64,000 bases of DNA from Nocardia africana NBRC 100379 (GTDB taxonomy: Bacteria; Actinomycetota; Actinomycetes; Mycobacteriales; Mycobacteriaceae). Below are positions 5,951 through 50,391 of this stretch, piece by piece (positions within the stretch are counted from its first letter, which is position 1; each line of letters starts with the position of its first letter). The stretch is taken from positions 682,001 through 746,000 of the forward strand of contig NZ_BDAV01000006.1 of the NCBI RefSeq assembly GCF_001612635.1, read 5' to 3'. Below the pieces are notes generated by a model. The model made no database searches, had not been told where the DNA came from, and saw nothing but the letters and a program-made list of their open reading frames with translations. The translations under genes were made by a program, and so were the position numbers.

Positions 5951-6991
5951 TTACGGGATGAGCACGGCGCGACCGCGGATCAGTCCCCGGTCGAGTCGTT
6001 CGAATGCGGCGGGCCCCTCGGCGAGGTCGAAACGTTCCACCGAGACGTCGATGGCGCCGCGCTGCGCGAGCGCCACCGACGCGTACAGGTCACTTCTGGT
6101 GCCGCCGTAGGACTTTCGGACCGTGGCGCCCCAGGGCAGGCCGGGCCCACCGGCGGGCCCGGCGTCGATGCCCGGAATTCCGCCGTCGAGTCCCACCATC
6201 CGATACGCGCCGTTCGGCGCCACCGACTCGACGGCGAGCTTCGCGGTGGCGTCGTTGCCGACGAAGTCGAACACGGCCTCCGCGCCCCGGCCGTCGGTGC
6301 GGTCCAGAATGCGGGCGGCGGTCTTCTCGTCGGCCGTCAGCGTGAGATCGGCGCCGCACGCCGTGGCGAGCTCGAGTTTCTCCGCGGAGATGTCGACCGC
6401 GATGATGCGGCACGCCGTGGTGGCCTTCAGGATCTGCACCGCGACATGTCCGAGCCCGCCGATGCCGATCGCGACGGCGGTGGCGCCGGGCCGCAACTGG
6501 TCGGCGGCACCGCGGATGGCGTGATACGGCGTGAGCGCCGCATCGGCCAGCGGCGCCGCCCTCGCGAAGTCCAGCTCGCCGATCGGCACGAACGAATTCG
6601 CCGGAATGCGAACGTATTCCGCCATGCCCCCGTCGGGCCCGAGGCCGGGGCACGGCGGCATCGCGGTGCGACCGGCCGCCAGGCAGACGTTCTCGTTACC
6701 GCTCACGCATTCCCGGCACACGCCACAGGACCAGCACAGATAGACCAGGCCCCGCTCCCCCGCGCGACGACCGTCGACCTCGCTGCCGACCGCCTCGATG
6801 GTGCCGGCGATCTCGTGCCCCATCGTCAGCGGATCCTCGCGCAGCGGAAACGGCAAGCCGAGAACGAAGGAGTCCGAATGGCAGATGCCGGCCGCTCCGA
6901 CCTTCAACAGCAGATCGGTGGGTCCGATCTCGGGGATGGGGACCTCGCGTAGCTCCAGCGTGCCGGGCCCGGTCAATTGCAATGCGCGCAT
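5951..6991 (-). CDS. Zinc-dependent medium-chain alcohol dehydrogenase
   Basis: This is a 346-residue MDR dehydrogenase. The catalytic zinc ligands are visible in GICHSD (about residue 38) and GHEIAGT (about 61-67). The structural-zinc region has the expected cysteines ([18 protein letters not shown], about 88-105), and the NAD-binding GIGGLG motif is at about 173-178. It oxidises an alcohol or reduces an aldehyde with NAD(P). The ATG at 6991 has a GAGGAAAC ribosome site. It is the first gene of the operon with the acyl-CoA synthetase and amidohydrolase. The promoter overlaps the palindrome at 7053-7081 shared with the divergent TetR gene, so repression by that regulator is likely. Confidence 0.93.
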
Positions 6992-7052
6992 GTTCTGTTT
7001 CCTCACCGCGGCGTTCGGCGCAGCGCCGGACGTGACGTGGCACACACGGTAG

Positions 7053-7081
7053 CACTCACTGGACACGGCGTCCAGTGAGTG
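7053..7081. promoter_or_regulatory. Perfect 12-bp inverted repeat, TetR operator
   Basis: CACTCACTGGAC (7053-7064) and GTCCAGTGAGTG (7070-7081) are exact reverse complements around a 5-base centre. The repeat lies between the divergent dehydrogenase (start 6991) and TetR (start 7105) genes, where one repressor dimer pair could shut both promoters. The TetR start at 7105 leaves the operator outside the coding region, whereas the upstream GTG at 7075 would put it inside. Confidence 0.85.
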
Positions 7082-11356: not shown

Positions 11357-12340
11357 CTACACTCCCAGCGCCGGGGCGAAGACCGACCACGAGTCGTGCA
11401 GATCGTCCTGCCAGTACACCCACGCGTGGGTGCCGTTGCGGTGCACGACCGTCGCCGGAATACCCAGGGCGGCAAGGCGACCGGTCAGCTGCCCGGTGCA
11501 CGAGTCGACCACGCTCTCCATCACGCCGCCGATCGCGACCCGGTTGGCCAGCGCGCCCGCGTTGCCGCCGATCGAGGGATCGGCGAGGGTGTCGTGCATG
11601 CCGGGCACTCCGTTGCCCGAGGAGATGTAGAGGGCCGTTCCGCGCAGACGATCGGCGTTCGCCACCGGATCGTGAGCGACCCAGGCCGGATCACCCGGCA
11701 CGCCCCACATATTCCCGGCATTCGCCCCGAAGACGCCGAGCTGCGAATACACATACGCCTGCGGTATCGGGCCGCTGGTCAGCGGGCACCCACTGTAGGC
11801 GCCGACCGCCTGGTACAGACCCGGCGCACCGATCGCCAGATCGAGAGACGAGGTCGCCGACATCGAGGTGCCCGCGACGGCATTGCGGCCCGTCATCTGG
11901 AACCGCGAGTTCAGCAGCGGCGGCAGCTCCTGGGTCAGGAACGTCGTCCACTGGTTGCGGCCCAGCACCGGATCGTCGGACTTCCAGTCGGTGTAGTAGC
12001 TGGCCCGCCCGCCCATCGGGACGATCACGTTCACCGGTTTATCGGCGAAGAATTGCGCGACGTCGGTGCGGGTGGTCCACGGCCCGCCGTCCTCGCCGCC
12101 GTCGACGGCGTTGAGCAGATACAGCGCCGGCGCCGCGAAATCCGGATGCGACATCCACACGGTGATCTGCTTGTTCATCGCCGGGGAATAGACCACCACC
12201 GAATACTGGCGACCGCCCAGCGGATGGACGTCGACGATGGCGGGACCGCCGGGATCTGCCGAGGCGACCGCGGGCACAATCGCGGCAATCGAGGCGAAGG
12301 CGGCGAACAGGACAGCAAAACAGCGCGGGAGCCGGTGCAT
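11357..12340 (-). CDS. Secreted antigen-85-like esterase / mycolyltransferase
   Basis: This 327-residue protein has a Sec signal peptide (residues 1-28, cleavage after AVASA) and the antigen 85 esterase fold. The nucleophile elbow AGTSMSATSS contains Ser159, the motif SYYTDWK is at about 114-120, and the C-terminal catalytic histidine is His305 in HAWVYWQDDL. Antigen 85 proteins move mycolic acids between trehalose, arabinogalactan and proteins in the outer cell envelope. The protein is a paralogue of the gene at 48218-49261. The ATG at 12340 is picked because it begins the signal peptide. No obvious operon partner: the VOC gene ends 161 bases upstream. Confidence 0.9.
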   Translation of the reverse strand: MHRLPRCFAVLFAAFASIAAIVPAVASADPGGPAIVDVHPLGGRQYSVVVYSPAMNKQITVWMSHPDFAAPALYLLNAVDGGEDGGPWTTRTDVAQFFADKPVNVIVPMGGRASYYTDWKSDDPVLGRNQWTTFLTQELPPLLNSRFQMTGRNAVAGTSMSATSSLDLAIGAPGLYQAVGAYSGCPLTSGPIPQAYVYSQLGVFGANAGNMWGVPGDPAWVAHDPVANADRLRGTALYISSGNGVPGMHDTLADPSIGGNAGALANRVAIGGVMESVVDSCTGQLTGRLAALGIPATVVHRNGTHAWVYWQDDLHDSWSVFAPALGV

Positions 12341-46722: not shown

Positions 46723-48189
46723 ATGACGACGAAAACGATCCGCGACGCGGGCAGCGGTCTCCACGTCACCGTCGAACAACTGAGTCCGCGCGATGCGGTA
46801 TTCGTCTACGACGAGTTCGAGCGGCATCCATCGAATATCGTCGCGGCCTACGTTTTCGCCGGCGCGGCGGACGCGACCGGATCCGAAGGCCGGACGGTGA
46901 GCCGGACAGAGGTGCGGGCATGGATGCGGGAGCGGCTCGGTTACGCACCGCTGTTCCATCGCCGGCTGGAACACGCACCGGGCGACGTCGACCTGCCGTA
47001 CTGGGTCCCCGACCCGAGCGTCGACATCGATCGTCACGTGACGATCGAGGAACGCGCGTCGTGGCCCTGGGCGCAGGTGCGGGAGCGCCTGGCCGAAATC
47101 GCCGCGGCCCGTATGGATCTCACCCGACCGCCGTGGGAGCTGCACCTCTTCGACCGCGTACACGGTTTTCCCGGGACCACCGAGCCGGTGAGGATCGTGG
47201 TGCTGAAGTTTCATCACAGCGTCGGCGACGGTGTGGCCACCCGCGCACTCGAGATGAGACTGTTCGGCGCGGCGGACACCCATCCGCCACTCCCCACAAT
47301 CGATCACCGCTGGTCGCAGCGCGCCGCACTGCTGCGCGCCGCCGCCGTCACGCCGTATCGGTTCGCCCGTTTCGTCTCCGGCGTGGCCCGTACGCGGGCG
47401 GCGGCACGCACGGTCCGGGCCGCGGTCGCGGATAACCTGCTCCGCGAACCGATTCCGCTGCGTCCCGCCACGCGGTTCAATCGCCGCATCGGCGCGAGGC
47501 CCGTCTTCGATCTCGTCACCCTGCCACTCACGCAGGTCAGGGCGGCGAAAGCGGCGGTCGCGGAACGCATTACGGTCAACGACCTGCTGCTGGCCGTCGT
47601 CTCGGGCGCACTCTCGGCCTATCTCGGCGAACACGGCGAAACCCCGCCCGAATCCCTGAGCGCGATGGTGCCGATCTCGATGCGCGGGCTCGCCCAGTGG
47701 AATTCGGCGAATCAGCTGTGCCAGATGTCGGTGGACCTGCATACGGACCTCGCCGATCCGCTGGAACGCCTGCGCGCGATCCGGCAATCGACCCGGGACG
47801 AGAAGCAGCGCTGGGCCGACCCGGCGGTGATCGCCCGCGAGAGCCGTATGCAGACCTCACCCGCCTGGCTGCTGCGGCTGGCCGGATGGGCTCGCGCACA
47901 GCGAGATTTCGACGACGCCGACACGGTGCCGCTGTCCAACACCACCGTCAGCAATGTGCCGCCGGTCGCGGACCGTCTGGAATTCCTCGGCGCACCGGTG
48001 ATCAGCGTCTTCGGTGTCCTTCCGATCATGGACGGCGACGGGCTGCGGCATCTGATCACCTCCCAGGGAGATCAGGTGGTGATCGCGGTCAGCTCCGACG
48101 CGGGCATGCTCCCGGATCCGGCGCGCTACGGCGAACTGCTGCTGCGCTCGTTCCGCGAGCTGAGTGAACATCTCACAACCGGGGGGTGA
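46723..48189 (+). CDS. Wax ester synthase / diacylglycerol acyltransferase (WS/DGAT)
   Basis: This 488-residue protein has the catalytic HHxxxDG motif as HHSVGDG (residues 164-170), the LTRPPWELHLFDRVHGF segment before it, the C-terminal WES domain with VNDLLLAVVSGAL and MVPISMRG, and the NTTVSNVPP motif near 410. Such enzymes make storage triacylglycerol or wax esters from acyl-CoA. An AGGAG site precedes the ATG. A 12-bp inverted repeat lies just upstream. It converges on the second mycolyltransferase gene with a 28-base gap. Confidence 0.95.
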   Translation: MTTKTIRDAGSGLHVTVEQLSPRDAVFVYDEFERHPSNIVAAYVFAGAADATGSEGRTVSRTEVRAWMRERLGYAPLFHRRLEHAPGDVDLPYWVPDPSVDIDRHVTIEERASWPWAQVRERLAEIAAARMDLTRPPWELHLFDRVHGFPGTTEPVRIVVLKFHHSVGDGVATRALEMRLFGAADTHPPLPTIDHRWSQRAALLRAAAVTPYRFARFVSGVARTRAAARTVRAAVADNLLREPIPLRPATRFNRRIGARPVFDLVTLPLTQVRAAKAAVAERITVNDLLLAVVSGALSAYLGEHGETPPESLSAMVPISMRGLAQWNSANQLCQMSVDLHTDLADPLERLRAIRQSTRDEKQRWADPAVIARESRMQTSPAWLLRLAGWARAQRDFDDADTVPLSNTTVSNVPPVADRLEFLGAPVISVFGVLPIMDGDGLRHLITSQGDQVVIAVSSDAGMLPDPARYGELLLRSFRELSEHLTTGG

Positions 48190-48217: not shown

Positions 48218-49261
48218 TCAGTCCGCGCCGATCGCCGCCGCCATCATCGGCCATGATTTGTGCAGGTCGTCCTGCCAATAACCCCACGAGTGGGTCCCGG
48301 CCGGGTGGAAGTTGTAGGTGATGTCCGTGCGTCCGAGTTCCCGGGTGCGCTCGGCGAGTTTGGCCGTGCAGTAATTCGCCGCCGATTCGATACCGCCGCC
48401 GAGCAGCACCTGATTCGCCAATACCCCGGTGTTCGCCCGCACACTCGGGTCGGCGAGGCTGTCGTGCCGGCCGGGAAGTCCGCTGGCGCTGGAGATGTAC
48501 ATCGGGATTCGCGGCAGCCGGTCGGCGTGCAGATACGGGTCGTGCGCCTTCCAGCCCTCACCCCCGACCGGCCCCCACATATTCGTCGCATCGCCCTTGC
48601 CCAGGCTGATTACCAGGCTGACGAACGACTGGCCGATCGGGTCGCTGGTCATCGCGCAACCGCTGTACGCGGAGACGCTCCGATAGAGCGCGGGCGCCTC
48701 GATCGCCAGATCCAGCACCGAGGTCCCGGCCATCGAGATGCCGGCCAGCGCGTTGACGCCGGTGGCGCCGAAGGCCGAATCGACCACGGGCGGAAGCTCT
48801 TCGGTGAGGAAGGTGGCCCACCTGTTCCGGCCGTTGTTGTTCAACTTCTTCGCCAGGCCGGGGTCGTCGCGTTGCCAGTCGGTGTAGTAGCTGAACGCGC
48901 CCTCCATCGGGATCACCACGTTGACGTGCTTGTCGGCGAAGAAGTCCGCGGCGTCGGTCTGCGCCAGCCAGGTCGCGGCGTCCTCGCCGCCGCCGGCGCC
49001 GTTGAGCAGATACAGCGTGGGCGCCGGGGTATCGGTGTCCTTCGCGCGCAACACCTGCAGCGCGATGGCGCGATCCATCGACGGCGAGTAGACACTGATC
49101 TGAAGGACACGTCCAGGACCTGCGGTTTCGCTGACGATGTGCGCCGCCGGCGCGGCCAAGACGGTCGGCGCGACCGACGTCCACAGCAGGGCGGCCGCCC
49201 CGAGATATGCCCCCAGACAGGCGATCACGCGTACCACGCCGGTCCTCTTACCGCTCGACAC
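48218..49261 (-). CDS. Secreted antigen-85-like mycolyltransferase
   Basis: The 347-residue protein has a signal sequence (about residues 1-38, VIACLGAYLGAAALLWTS...LAAPA) and the antigen-85 fold. The elbow AGISMAGTSVLD contains Ser176, SYYTDWQ is at about 124-130, and the closing HSWGYWQDDL contains catalytic His324. Mycolyltransferases place mycolic acids on trehalose, arabinogalactan or, in corynebacteria, on small porin proteins. GTG start at 49261 (or 49264) behind AGAGG. Two small genes lie directly upstream on the same strand (gaps of 70-71 bases), suggesting one transcript. It is similar to the gene at 11357 but not identical. Confidence 0.9.
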   Translation of the reverse strand: MSSGKRTGVVRVIACLGAYLGAAALLWTSVAPTVLAAPAAHIVSETAGPGRVLQISVYSPSMDRAIALQVLRAKDTDTPAPTLYLLNGAGGGEDAATWLAQTDAADFFADKHVNVVIPMEGAFSYYTDWQRDDPGLAKKLNNNGRNRWATFLTEELPPVVDSAFGATGVNALAGISMAGTSVLDLAIEAPALYRSVSAYSGCAMTSDPIGQSFVSLVISLGKGDATNMWGPVGGEGWKAHDPYLHADRLPRIPMYISSASGLPGRHDSLADPSVRANTGVLANQVLLGGGIESAANYCTAKLAERTRELGRTDITYNFHPAGTHSWGYWQDDLHKSWPMMAAAIGAD

Positions 49262-49331
49262 CACTACCACCTCTACACACCACTGTGGGGGCGCACCCGG
49301 TCCGAGTGAGCCCCCACAATCGACAACTGGA

Positions 49332-49448
49332 TTATTTTCCGGCGGCCGGGGTGCCACCGCTGAGGGTGATGAGCGCATTCACGATGGTGGTTCCGACCGA
49401 ACCGGCGCTCTGTGTGCCCATTCCCAGAATATCGATGAGCGATCCCAT
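49332..49448 (-). CDS. Small hydrophobic peptide (38 aa), candidate PorA/PorH-like envelope peptide
   Basis: An ATG with an AGGAGA site 8 bases upstream opens a 38-residue frame, MGSLIDILGMGTQSAGSVGT, then a hydrophobic NALITLS segment and a GGTPAAGK tail, ending in TAA. It has no cleavable signal, is rich in Gly/Ser/Thr, and shares its N-terminal pattern MGSxxDxL with the peptide encoded 70 bases upstream. Its own ribosome site, the matching neighbour and the mycolyltransferase 70 bases downstream argue that it is a gene. Corynebacterial PorA/PorH are peptides of similar size, O-mycoloylated on serine; homology is not shown here. Confidence 0.65.
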   Translation of the reverse strand: MGSLIDILGMGTQSAGSVGTTIVNALITLSGGTPAAGK

Positions 49449-49518
49449 ATCTTTCTCCTACATATCCGTGCATCGAGTTACCGCGCGCAACCCGATGAAT
49501 ACGAGCGGTTGCGTCGAA

Positions 49519-49632
49519 TTACTTGACGATGTTTCCGAGCGATCCGAGGAAGGTTGCCCAGAGCCCGTCACCCGCGACTGCGGAACCCAGGGCCGGAATC
49601 AACGCGGTAAGCAAGTCGCCCATCGAACCCAT
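49519..49632 (-). CDS. Small hydrophobic peptide (37 aa), candidate PorA/PorH-like envelope peptide
   Basis: An ATG with an AGGAG site 8 bases upstream opens a 37-residue frame: MGSMGDLLTALIPALGSAVA, then GDGLWATFLGSLGNIVK and TAA. It is almost entirely apolar plus Gly/Ser, with one Trp, two Asp and one Lys, and would form an amphipathic or membrane helix. The WATFLGSLG end recalls the ends of corynebacterial PorA-type peptides (memory, not a search). It is the first of three same-strand genes (peptide, peptide, mycolyltransferase). The next in-frame ATG at 49623 is a less likely start. Too short for ordinary gene finding. Confidence 0.65.
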   Translation of the reverse strand: MGSMGDLLTALIPALGSAVAGDGLWATFLGSLGNIVK

Positions 49633-50391
49633 CGATGAATCTCCTTTTGTGAGCGTGTTCAATCGCCTCTCAGGCGCCGGAATCACGTCTGAGAGTTATC
49701 GGTCACGGCCGGTACCGGTTAGTGACCGAGGCAACATATCAAGCGTCCACTTTTCAAGCAAGCGCCTCCTCTAAAACCTGGAGCCGCACTTCAGCCCGAA
49801 AATAGCTACTTTTCAGCAACTTCCAGCTGGAATCGGCTCCCTCGAACCGGACCGCAGTCCGCGAGACGAACGGCGTGACGCTCGGCGAGTTACCTTGCTC
49901 GACAACACGTTTCACTTCCGGCCGGAAGTTTCGTGTCGCGCGGAATCGGGTACAGGTTTGTGCACGCACCACATCGCTCGACGGTCTCGGCAGGTCCTCG
50001 AGACCCTTCGTTTTGCTAGGAAATTTTTTTTCGGAACCCCGCCGGAGACCCGACACCCCCGGGAATCGGGCACACAACGCCGCTCGAGACCGGTGATCCC
50101 GGCCGTGCGGACGGTGTGCGATGATCATGACGAACAGCTCGGACGGCCGGCCGCTTCCTCGTCGCGGAGGCCGAAGTTGTTCTCTCCATGGGCTTTTCCT
50201 GGTCAATAGACCGAGTGCTAGTGCTCGACCCTCACCGATGCCTGCCCGGCGGGACGCCCTCCACAGCTGCGTCGTCGCCCTGGGTTTGCCGCGCCGTTAC
50301 GCCGTGTCGACTCGTCCTGTCTCCGGCCTGCCCGCGGCGCCGCATCGGCCGCACATCGGATGTCGATCGAACATCGAAAGGACTTTGGCAC
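49633..50391. other. 759-base gap with palindrome, hairpin and T8 tract
   Basis: This region between the divergent small-peptide operon and the P450 gene has no convincing protein gene; the 150-codon minus frame (49754-50206) has poor codon bias and composition. It holds a perfect 16-bp palindrome ACTTCCGGCCGGAAGT (49914-49929), a hairpin GGTCTCG/CGAGACC (49983-49989 with 49999-50005) and a run of eight T (50024-50031). The base composition is lower in GC than the flanking genes. It could contain promoters for both sides, and possibly a small RNA ending at the T run. Confidence 0.5.

Follow-up and report, generated by a model that had tools for sequence, protein, structure and literature searches.

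The closest described counterpart of the locus considered here is the pore of Corynebacterium glutamicum, whose peptides PorA and PorH are encoded as a pair and are reported to depend on the mycoloyltransferase Cmt1, O-mycoloylation of at least one of the residues PorA S15 and PorH S56 being required for surface assembly and a five-plus-five ring being modelled for the complex (PMC12632848). Both peptides are stated to have no presequence, and their export is called unexplained (PMC3792995). In a model of PorA two helices form a hook, and S15 sits in the turn that enters MytC (PMC11927696), and a loop characteristic of MytC is said to set peptide specificity (PMC5310785). In the sources as available to us, paired tiny helical porins together with demonstrated protein mycoloylation are described for Corynebacterium. 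MytC orthologues are reported in Nocardia, Gordonia and Rhodococcus, while the same 2017 paper treats the existence of protein mycoloylation outside Corynebacterium as an open question (PMC5310785). In full-text searches of open-access literature none of the titles and abstracts listed describes such peptides in Nocardia or Rhodococcus; subscription papers lie mostly outside this scope and may hold an earlier mention.

The locus compared with this system was found in the window, i.e., the whole stretch of 64,000 nucleotides that was analyzed, and comprises the following features:

49733-49761, minus strand: promoter-like site, with -35 box TTGCTT at 49761-49756, a 17-nt spacer and -10 box TATGTT at 49738-49733
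49701-49727, minus strand: inverted repeat GGTCAC-N15-GTGACC directly following the -10 box, a candidate operator or 5' stem
49519-49632, minus strand: PEP2, leaderless peptide of 37 amino acids, start ATG, first gene of the unit
49332-49448, minus strand: PEP1, leaderless peptide of 38 amino acids, start ATG, second gene
49282-49320, minus strand: hairpin between PEP1 and EST, in a region folding at -45 kcal/mol
48218-49264, minus strand: EST, secreted mycoloyltransferase of the Cmt1/MytC kind, start GTG at 49264 or 49261, equally plausible
46723-48189, plus strand: WS/DGAT-family O-acyltransferase, convergent with EST

The order of transcription on the minus strand is promoter-like site, inverted repeat, PEP2, PEP1, hairpin and EST; a cytochrome P450 gene lies upstream of the unit on the plus strand and, together with EST and the WS/DGAT gene, flanks the peptide pair. 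Both tandem frames described in the earlier note, of 38 and 37 codons and each beginning MGSxxDxL, are present as claimed. Its gaps of about 70 bases also hold, as 70 nt separate PEP2 from PEP1 and about 67 nt separate PEP1 from EST, counted to GTG 49264. An AGGAG site at 8 bases, claimed for both frames, was found at that distance from the ATG of PEP2, that of PEP1 lying 6 nt from its ATG.

Judged by their codon and conservation patterns, both frames are real genes. Just 4 frames of 28-75 codons in the 64 kb pass a filter for a ribosome site and apolar composition, and PEP1 and PEP2 are the sole ones among these 4 with an MGS or MSS start, which argues that they are more than a chance occurrence. 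Since high G+C content yields many spurious frames and stem-loops flank the pair on both sides, PEP1 and PEP2 could be taken for chance frames within a conserved RNA leader. This candidate explanation was rejected on conservation and codon pattern, and we regard it as hardly credible: amino acids are conserved across genera, pN/pS is 0.45 for PEP2 (74 distinct DNA sequences) and 0.50 for PEP1 (55 sequences), with synonymous sites partly saturated, vs 1.1 to 1.7 in the other frames where these are readable, ribosome sites precede the collected copies of both peptides, intact frames are duplicated in tandem, and Rfam gave no match across 49200-49900. The third codon position accounts for 53% and 51% of the differences in the same PEP2 and PEP1 sets, respectively, the +1 frame of PEP1 is open in just 3 of its 55 sequences, and the RNA structure between PEP2 and PEP1 is ordinary (z -0.89). 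Pfam returned no match for the 37- and 38-residue peptides, nor the MspA domain (about 180 residues), and an NCBIfam scan of 23 PEP2 members gave three weak hits, each of a single member. A plasmid origin was considered and rejected, a tblastn search with PEP2 of a plasmid collection giving no match.

In alignments of tblastn hits, collected with no demand for an MGS start, M1, G2 and S3 are invariant (16/16 rows of PEP2, 14/14 of PEP1), as are S17 and S31 of PEP2 (16/16) and S14 and S30 of PEP1 (14/14); the larger sequence collection required an MGS start, and conservation of MGS is therefore not readable from it. In the wider alignments PEP2 S3 and S31 and PEP1 S3 and S30 remain invariant, PEP2 Ser17 is nearly so and PEP1 Ser14 is no longer so. 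The invariant serines lie in Gly/Ala/Ser surroundings and in this resemble mapped O-mycoloylation sites, reported to be Ser, less often Thr, amid small residues and without a strict motif (PMC11066868). Past residue 3 of the related sequences, GS with an apolar residue next in line occurs more often than expected (159 occurrences vs 20 expected for PEP2, 34 vs 14 for PEP1). The predicted structures, both of modest confidence, give PEP2 two helices (4-19 and 24-36) with a turn at 20-23 near S17 (mean pLDDT 70.5), and PEP1 a helix at 4-29 followed by a loose tail (mean pLDDT 67.8). The amphipathic-helix check proposed in the earlier note gave a modest result, the helical hydrophobic moment of the two peptides exceeding that of shuffles at p 0.08 and 0.07.

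The unit recurs far beyond the window. A first search detected PEP2 in 19 of 60 genomes at E <= 0.1, two of them weakly, and 18 of the 21 loci kept, from 16 genomes, hold PEP2, PEP1 and EST together. Among 148 Nocardia genomes the raw profile matches numbered 57 for PEP2, 53 for PEP1 and 55 for EST; after removal of weak-only entries (hits in long frames, G091, G134, G145 and G161 for PEP2 and G063 for PEP1, dropped before counting) they were 53, 52 and 55. All 52 PEP1-bearing Nocardia genomes also have PEP2 and EST, although the 148 genomes, an even draw from a larger group, are mutually related and such linkage counts do not represent independent events. The earlier note would have abandoned its proposal had the frames lacked conservation; this refutation fails, because homologues stand in the same order in the 16 genomes of the first search and in 52 of the 148 Nocardia genomes. 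EST occurs without peptides in three genomes (G069, G137 and G152), where the upstream filter shows none; the EST sequences of these genomes cluster in the enzyme tree, though with a support of 84 that falls short of the starred level, and the peptides were thus probably lost in one event. Conversely, G001 carries a lone PEP2-like gene, EST, PEP1 and WS/DGAT not being found in the stretches read, and this gene is probably a remnant. In some species multiple peptide pairs precede one enzyme gene, up to three pairs being found, in N. neocaledoniensis (L189).

The earlier note had suggested a nocardial system, which proved too narrow, as Speluncibacter, Prescottella and Rhodococcus show the same PEP2-PEP1-enzyme order. 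A PEP1 profile built from Nocardia rows matched 31 of 201 family genomes, 11 of them Nocardia and some weakly; a wider profile matched 59 of 401 genomes and 9 of 31 genera, several weakly, and as it included rows from other genera, its matches in those genomes arise partly by construction. By reading of the loci the pair was verified in Speluncibacter, Prescottella, Rhodococcus (R. oryzae, R. spelaei, R. erythropolis and relatives) and the genus g25. In L134, L137, L140, L143, L145, L148 and L152, belonging to some Prescottella-type genomes and one other genome, the neighboring mycoloyltransferase is just 37-42% identical to EST. The g25 locus L149 (3287-5246) holds a PEP2-like frame (44 amino acids) and a longer PEP1-like frame (58 amino acids) on the same strand after a WS/DGAT gene, and no mycoloyltransferase match within the 6 kb read.

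EST has a Pfam Esterase domain, and its best match among solved structures is Cmt1 of C. glutamicum (234 bits, residues 44-344), PS1 scoring 143 and Ag85A 95 bits. By sequence, the enzyme thus resembles Cmt1/MytC, which is the C. glutamicum protein O-mycoloyltransferase, more closely than it does antigen 85, for which the score does not exceed 95 bits, and the antigen-85-like label given to it previously has to be replaced. Its residues S177, E293 and H325 align to the MytC triad S189, E310 and H341 (named in PMC11927696) and are invariant in 10/10 aligned orthologues. In a tree of 77 rows the EST orthologues, the three peptide-less ESTs and two Tomitella enzymes form a clade of 28 rows (SH-aLRT 99), which none of the genome's other sampled mycoloyltransferase paralogues enter. 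Corynebacterial Cmt1 belongs to a neighboring group, and both sit, with the R. jostii enzyme of L223, in a group of 41 rows (SH-aLRT 91). The tree was made by a quick method, has 22 open forks, leaves out L168, L170, L171, L172, L292, L301 and L302, and holds duplicate rows from overlapping loci (L155/L156, L284/L288, L131/L153), so that the sampling of paralogues is incomplete. Around the genome's 18 other mycoloyltransferase hits the same filter found no such peptides; one of the window's own genes, at 11360-12328 on the minus strand, is a second mycoloyltransferase-like gene, 50% identical to EST and without tiny peptides by the filter.

The unit had been proposed to comprise three genes. 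Two conserved leaderless peptides with a mycoloyltransferase of the Cmt1/MytC kind stand; a fourth gene, for the WS/DGAT enzyme, has to be added. In the window this enzyme scores 333 bits against TIGR02946 (cut-off 309.95), matches both solved structures (PDB 6CHJ and 7NXG) and bears the HHxxxDG motif, which is present in 37/37 WS/DGAT matches of the searched loci; in these three respects it is like the known WS/DGAT O-acyltransferases. At E <= 1e-90, 49 of the 52 Nocardia genomes with the peptides hold one copy each, and none of the 96 without them has any. In two of the three exceptions, G015 and G029, the gene is probably lost at a contig end, pieces of it remaining in L201 and L184, on contigs of equal length; for the third, G138, no WS/DGAT was seen in L111 or L204. 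The gene adjoins EST in the Nocardia and Speluncibacter loci read (L173-L202), save for L187, where the sequence stops at this point, and the peptide-less L193. Wherever both genes share a contig (48/48 genomes), it lies immediately 3' of EST, convergent in 30 genomes and co-directional in 18, with frames that touch or overlap in some of the latter; in G154 the two are on separate contigs. In Prescottella-type genomes, R. oryzae, R. spelaei and g25 it is found 5' of the pair on the same strand. The R. erythropolis-type loci have only a distant WS/DGAT relative, at the locus edge, and N. camponoti no close WS/DGAT nearby. Because the gene switches side and strand and yet stays beside the unit, it is probably tied to it functionally. 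We know of no WS/DGAT member with an assigned peptide substrate, and among the literature matches listed no paper joins 'wax ester synthase' with mycoloylation terms.

This linkage leaves room for a reading in which PEP1 and PEP2 are not substrates at all, being instead small cofactors, activators or membrane tethers of both acyltransferases, which would act on glycolipids or wax-type lipids. The link of the peptides to the WS/DGAT gene is as tight as that to the mycoloyltransferase, and the 18 co-directional arrangements, some with touching or overlapping frames, would suit it; however, several pairs per single enzyme suit substrates better, two different kinds of peptide are kept, and the hairpin ahead of the enzyme gene suggests unequal amounts. 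Considering these points, we find such a role doubtful. A comparably doubtful proposal makes the peptides substrates of both enzymes: the cytoplasmic WS/DGAT enzyme would O-acylate the leaderless peptides from acyl-CoA, allowing them to insert into the envelope and pass through it despite lacking a signal peptide; the secreted MytC-type enzyme would add mycolate afterwards, fixing them as a two-component mycomembrane pore. If true, double lipidation would give WS/DGAT enzymes a new function and explain how leaderless peptides of this sort are exported.

Upstream of the pair, TATGTTGC is invariant in an alignment of this region from 13 Nocardia loci, where a TTG box precedes it by 17-18 nt, and most Nocardia copies share such a promoter-like site; in the same 13 sequences GTCAC of the inverted repeat is invariant and GTGAC mostly kept. 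TATGTTG[CT] occurs in 20 of 35 named PEP2-bearing loci and TACGTT, at equal spacing, in five further Nocardia loci, the remaining named loci showing neither box. The hairpin region between PEP1 and EST folds with z -3.24, 0 of 200 shuffles being as low. A hairpin lies 3' of PEP1 in 35/35 scored named loci (L173-L209 minus L193 and L208, which have no scorable pair), with best energies of -28.7 to -44.8 kcal/mol; L143, L145, L148 and L149 were unscored because the PEP1 pattern did not fit. Energies of -35 kcal/mol or below were found in 22/35 loci vs 20/377 random stretches of the same loci, and perfect stems of at least 11 pairs in 15/35 loci vs 3/390 random stretches; at the cut-off of -28.7 kcal/mol, itself the weakest value observed, the figures are 35/35 and 124/377. 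Some of the named loci come from strains of one species or from closely related species and so are not independent, and the stem sequences vary between lineages. From the position of the hairpin we infer that peptide output may exceed enzyme output.

Taken together, these data lead us to read the locus, with modest confidence, as a dedicated cassette for making and lipidating a pair of tiny mycomembrane peptides. PEP1 and PEP2 would be made in excess over EST and would exit the cytoplasm without a signal peptide, as stated for PorA and PorH; secreted EST would move mycolate from trehalose monomycolate onto conserved serines, the candidate acceptors being Ser3, Ser17 and Ser31 of PEP2 and Ser3, Ser30 and perhaps Ser14 of PEP1. 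Within the mycomembrane the two helical peptides may then assemble with each other, forming either a two-component pore or a structural layer anchored by lipid, and the WS/DGAT enzyme, in the least certain step, may add a second acyl group or supply an acyl lipid. Lipidation, export and pore formation we infer by analogy. In favor of the cassette stand the strict peptide-enzyme linkage in 52/52 peptide-pair genomes, the repeated pairs ahead of one enzyme, the kinship of EST with Cmt1/MytC, the single clade of EST orthologues, the lack of such peptides, by the filter, around the genome's 18 other hits, the coding signature, the invariant serines and the constant place of WS/DGAT next to EST. 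Against the cassette we count the three EST-only genomes, the pairs beside a distant or no mycoloyltransferase, the R. erythropolis-type loci and N. camponoti lacking a close WS/DGAT, the modest structure confidence, and the marginal homology to PorA and absent homology to PorH described below. The genome also carries four MspA-type porin genes elsewhere, and a further pore is therefore not obviously needed.

Being small, apolar and paired, the peptides could also be secreted signals, bacteriocins or surfactants of the two-peptide type, modified or trimmed by the neighboring enzymes, and one of the weak NCBIfam hits mentioned above is to the RiPP peptide TigB (E 0.035, 1 of 23 PEP2 members). 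We consider this quite improbable: no transporter, protease or immunity gene was recognized among the five neighbors scanned, the sequences are conserved across genera and not diversified, and the partner is an envelope mycoloyltransferase.

Small frames of similar look were noted at various other loci. Prescottella-type genomes hold additional small MGS/MSS peptides, frequently paired and belonging to at least four other classes, which follow near the first pair and its mycoloyltransferase (L143:3555-4660, L145:3938-4280, L148:1585-2415, L151:5182-6130, L209:8267-9232). In Tomitella L210 and L211 an EST-clade enzyme is surrounded, on one strand or on both, by several different GS-rich frames 39-59 codons long, which do not match PEP1 or PEP2. 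Near Rhodococcus mycoloyltransferases a 30-codon frame MGSI...TGSL is found (L223:4147-4239, L225:8861-8953, L227:7347-7439, L247:8713-8805, L214:5376-5468), and L216:11364-11756 and L217:11365-11757 of this genus hold a second diverged pair of 61 and 47 codons, the smaller ending in ALSGGELKAAK like PEP1. Small apolar GS-bearing frames, single or paired, also lie by mycoloyltransferases of Lolliginicoccus (L236:5407-5625 and 6931-7053, L246:6948-7070), Hoyosella (L242:5386-5816) and g25 (L274:538-1018). The C-terminus of a Corynebacterium mycoloyltransferase (L280), GSVTGSVTG, shows the GS-apolar motif of the peptides.

Whether PEP1 and PEP2 belong to the PorA and PorH families was examined with the curated NCBIfam models, which match corynebacterial PorA and PorH taken as controls; they gave no match for PEP1 and PEP2 of the window, the 23 PEP2 members or one Rhodococcus relative. 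The PorA model, for which C. glutamicum was the positive control, is narrow: 0/301 family genomes, Corynebacterium included, scored over its cut-off, and 5/301 matched at E <= 0.01, three Corynebacterium and two g25 with internal stops. Failure of the peptides to match it is thus weak evidence on distant kinship. Comparison of profiles, fifteen in all, gave scores against PorA that were reached by 3 (PEP2), 1 (PEP1) and 4 (third class) of 100 column shuffles, and scores against PorH that were reached by 30 (PEP2) and 10 (PEP1) of 100. The rarity of such PorA scores among shuffles, the agreement in size, pairing and absence of a leader, and the narrowness of the curated model, which makes failing it say little, would fit PEP1 and PEP2 being true but very diverged members of a PorA/PorH superfamily, the cassette being an old family member and not an analogue. 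Yet the best PEP2-PorA alignment, which pairs Ser3 with PorA Ser15, reaches just 5% probability in a register that omits half of PorA, the PorH scores are reached more often by shuffles, and with fifteen comparisons made we hold true kinship to be improbable. Membership of PEP1 and PEP2 in either family is, on this sequence evidence, not supported. The PorA/PorH-like designation of the earlier note accordingly survives for the paired, leaderless, apolar nature of the peptides, their sequence placing neither in the PorA or PorH families.

In about one third of the sampled Nocardia, as well as in several related genera, the cassette sets a candidate substrate pair beside a MytC-type enzyme. It also brings in a second lipid enzyme, for which a role is suggested. 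The peptide genes are short enough for usual annotation to miss. Further pairs of tiny GS-rich peptides occur near other mycoloyltransferases in other genera, and the cassette may be one member of a larger set. If the reading as a lipidating cassette is true, protein mycoloylation and tiny outer-membrane peptides extend well beyond Corynebacterium, and the locus makes mycoloylation outside that genus directly testable.

Compared with known systems, EST resembles Cmt1/MytC (PDB 4H18, 8QHF) in best solved match and aligned triad; by tblastn, its identity with the orthologue of Cmt1 in a relative of C. glutamicum is about 41%, and the two fall into separate clades of the enzyme tree. The corynebacterial enzyme gene lies elsewhere, whereas that of PEP1 and PEP2 adjoins them, and a WS/DGAT gene belongs to their unit. 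To our knowledge, pore peptides and Cmt1 are not in one locus in Corynebacterium, and no WS/DGAT is known there. The porH-porA pair is placed between the groEL2 and ppk2 genes (PMC3792995), PEP1 and PEP2 by EST, WS/DGAT and P450. The MspA-type porins NfpA/NfpB of Nocardia and Rhodococcus are reported as likewise two-component outer-membrane channels from the same organism group (PMC9233653, PMC5310785), but they differ in being beta-barrels of about 200 residues with Sec signal peptides. The likeness to PorA/PorH (NF033925, NF033937, NF033938; TC 1.B.34, 1.B.59) consists of two adjacent genes for tiny, apolar, helical and leaderless peptides, PEP1 and PEP2 (38 and 37 residues) being slightly shorter than PorA/PorH-type peptides of about 40-60 residues, and of the tie to a Cmt1/MytC enzyme, stated for PorA/PorH in PMC12632848. 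From its sequences, the PEP1/PEP2 cassette appears to encode a set of outer-membrane peptides, anchored by lipid and not described before, similar to PorA and PorH in anatomy and not filed as members of their families.
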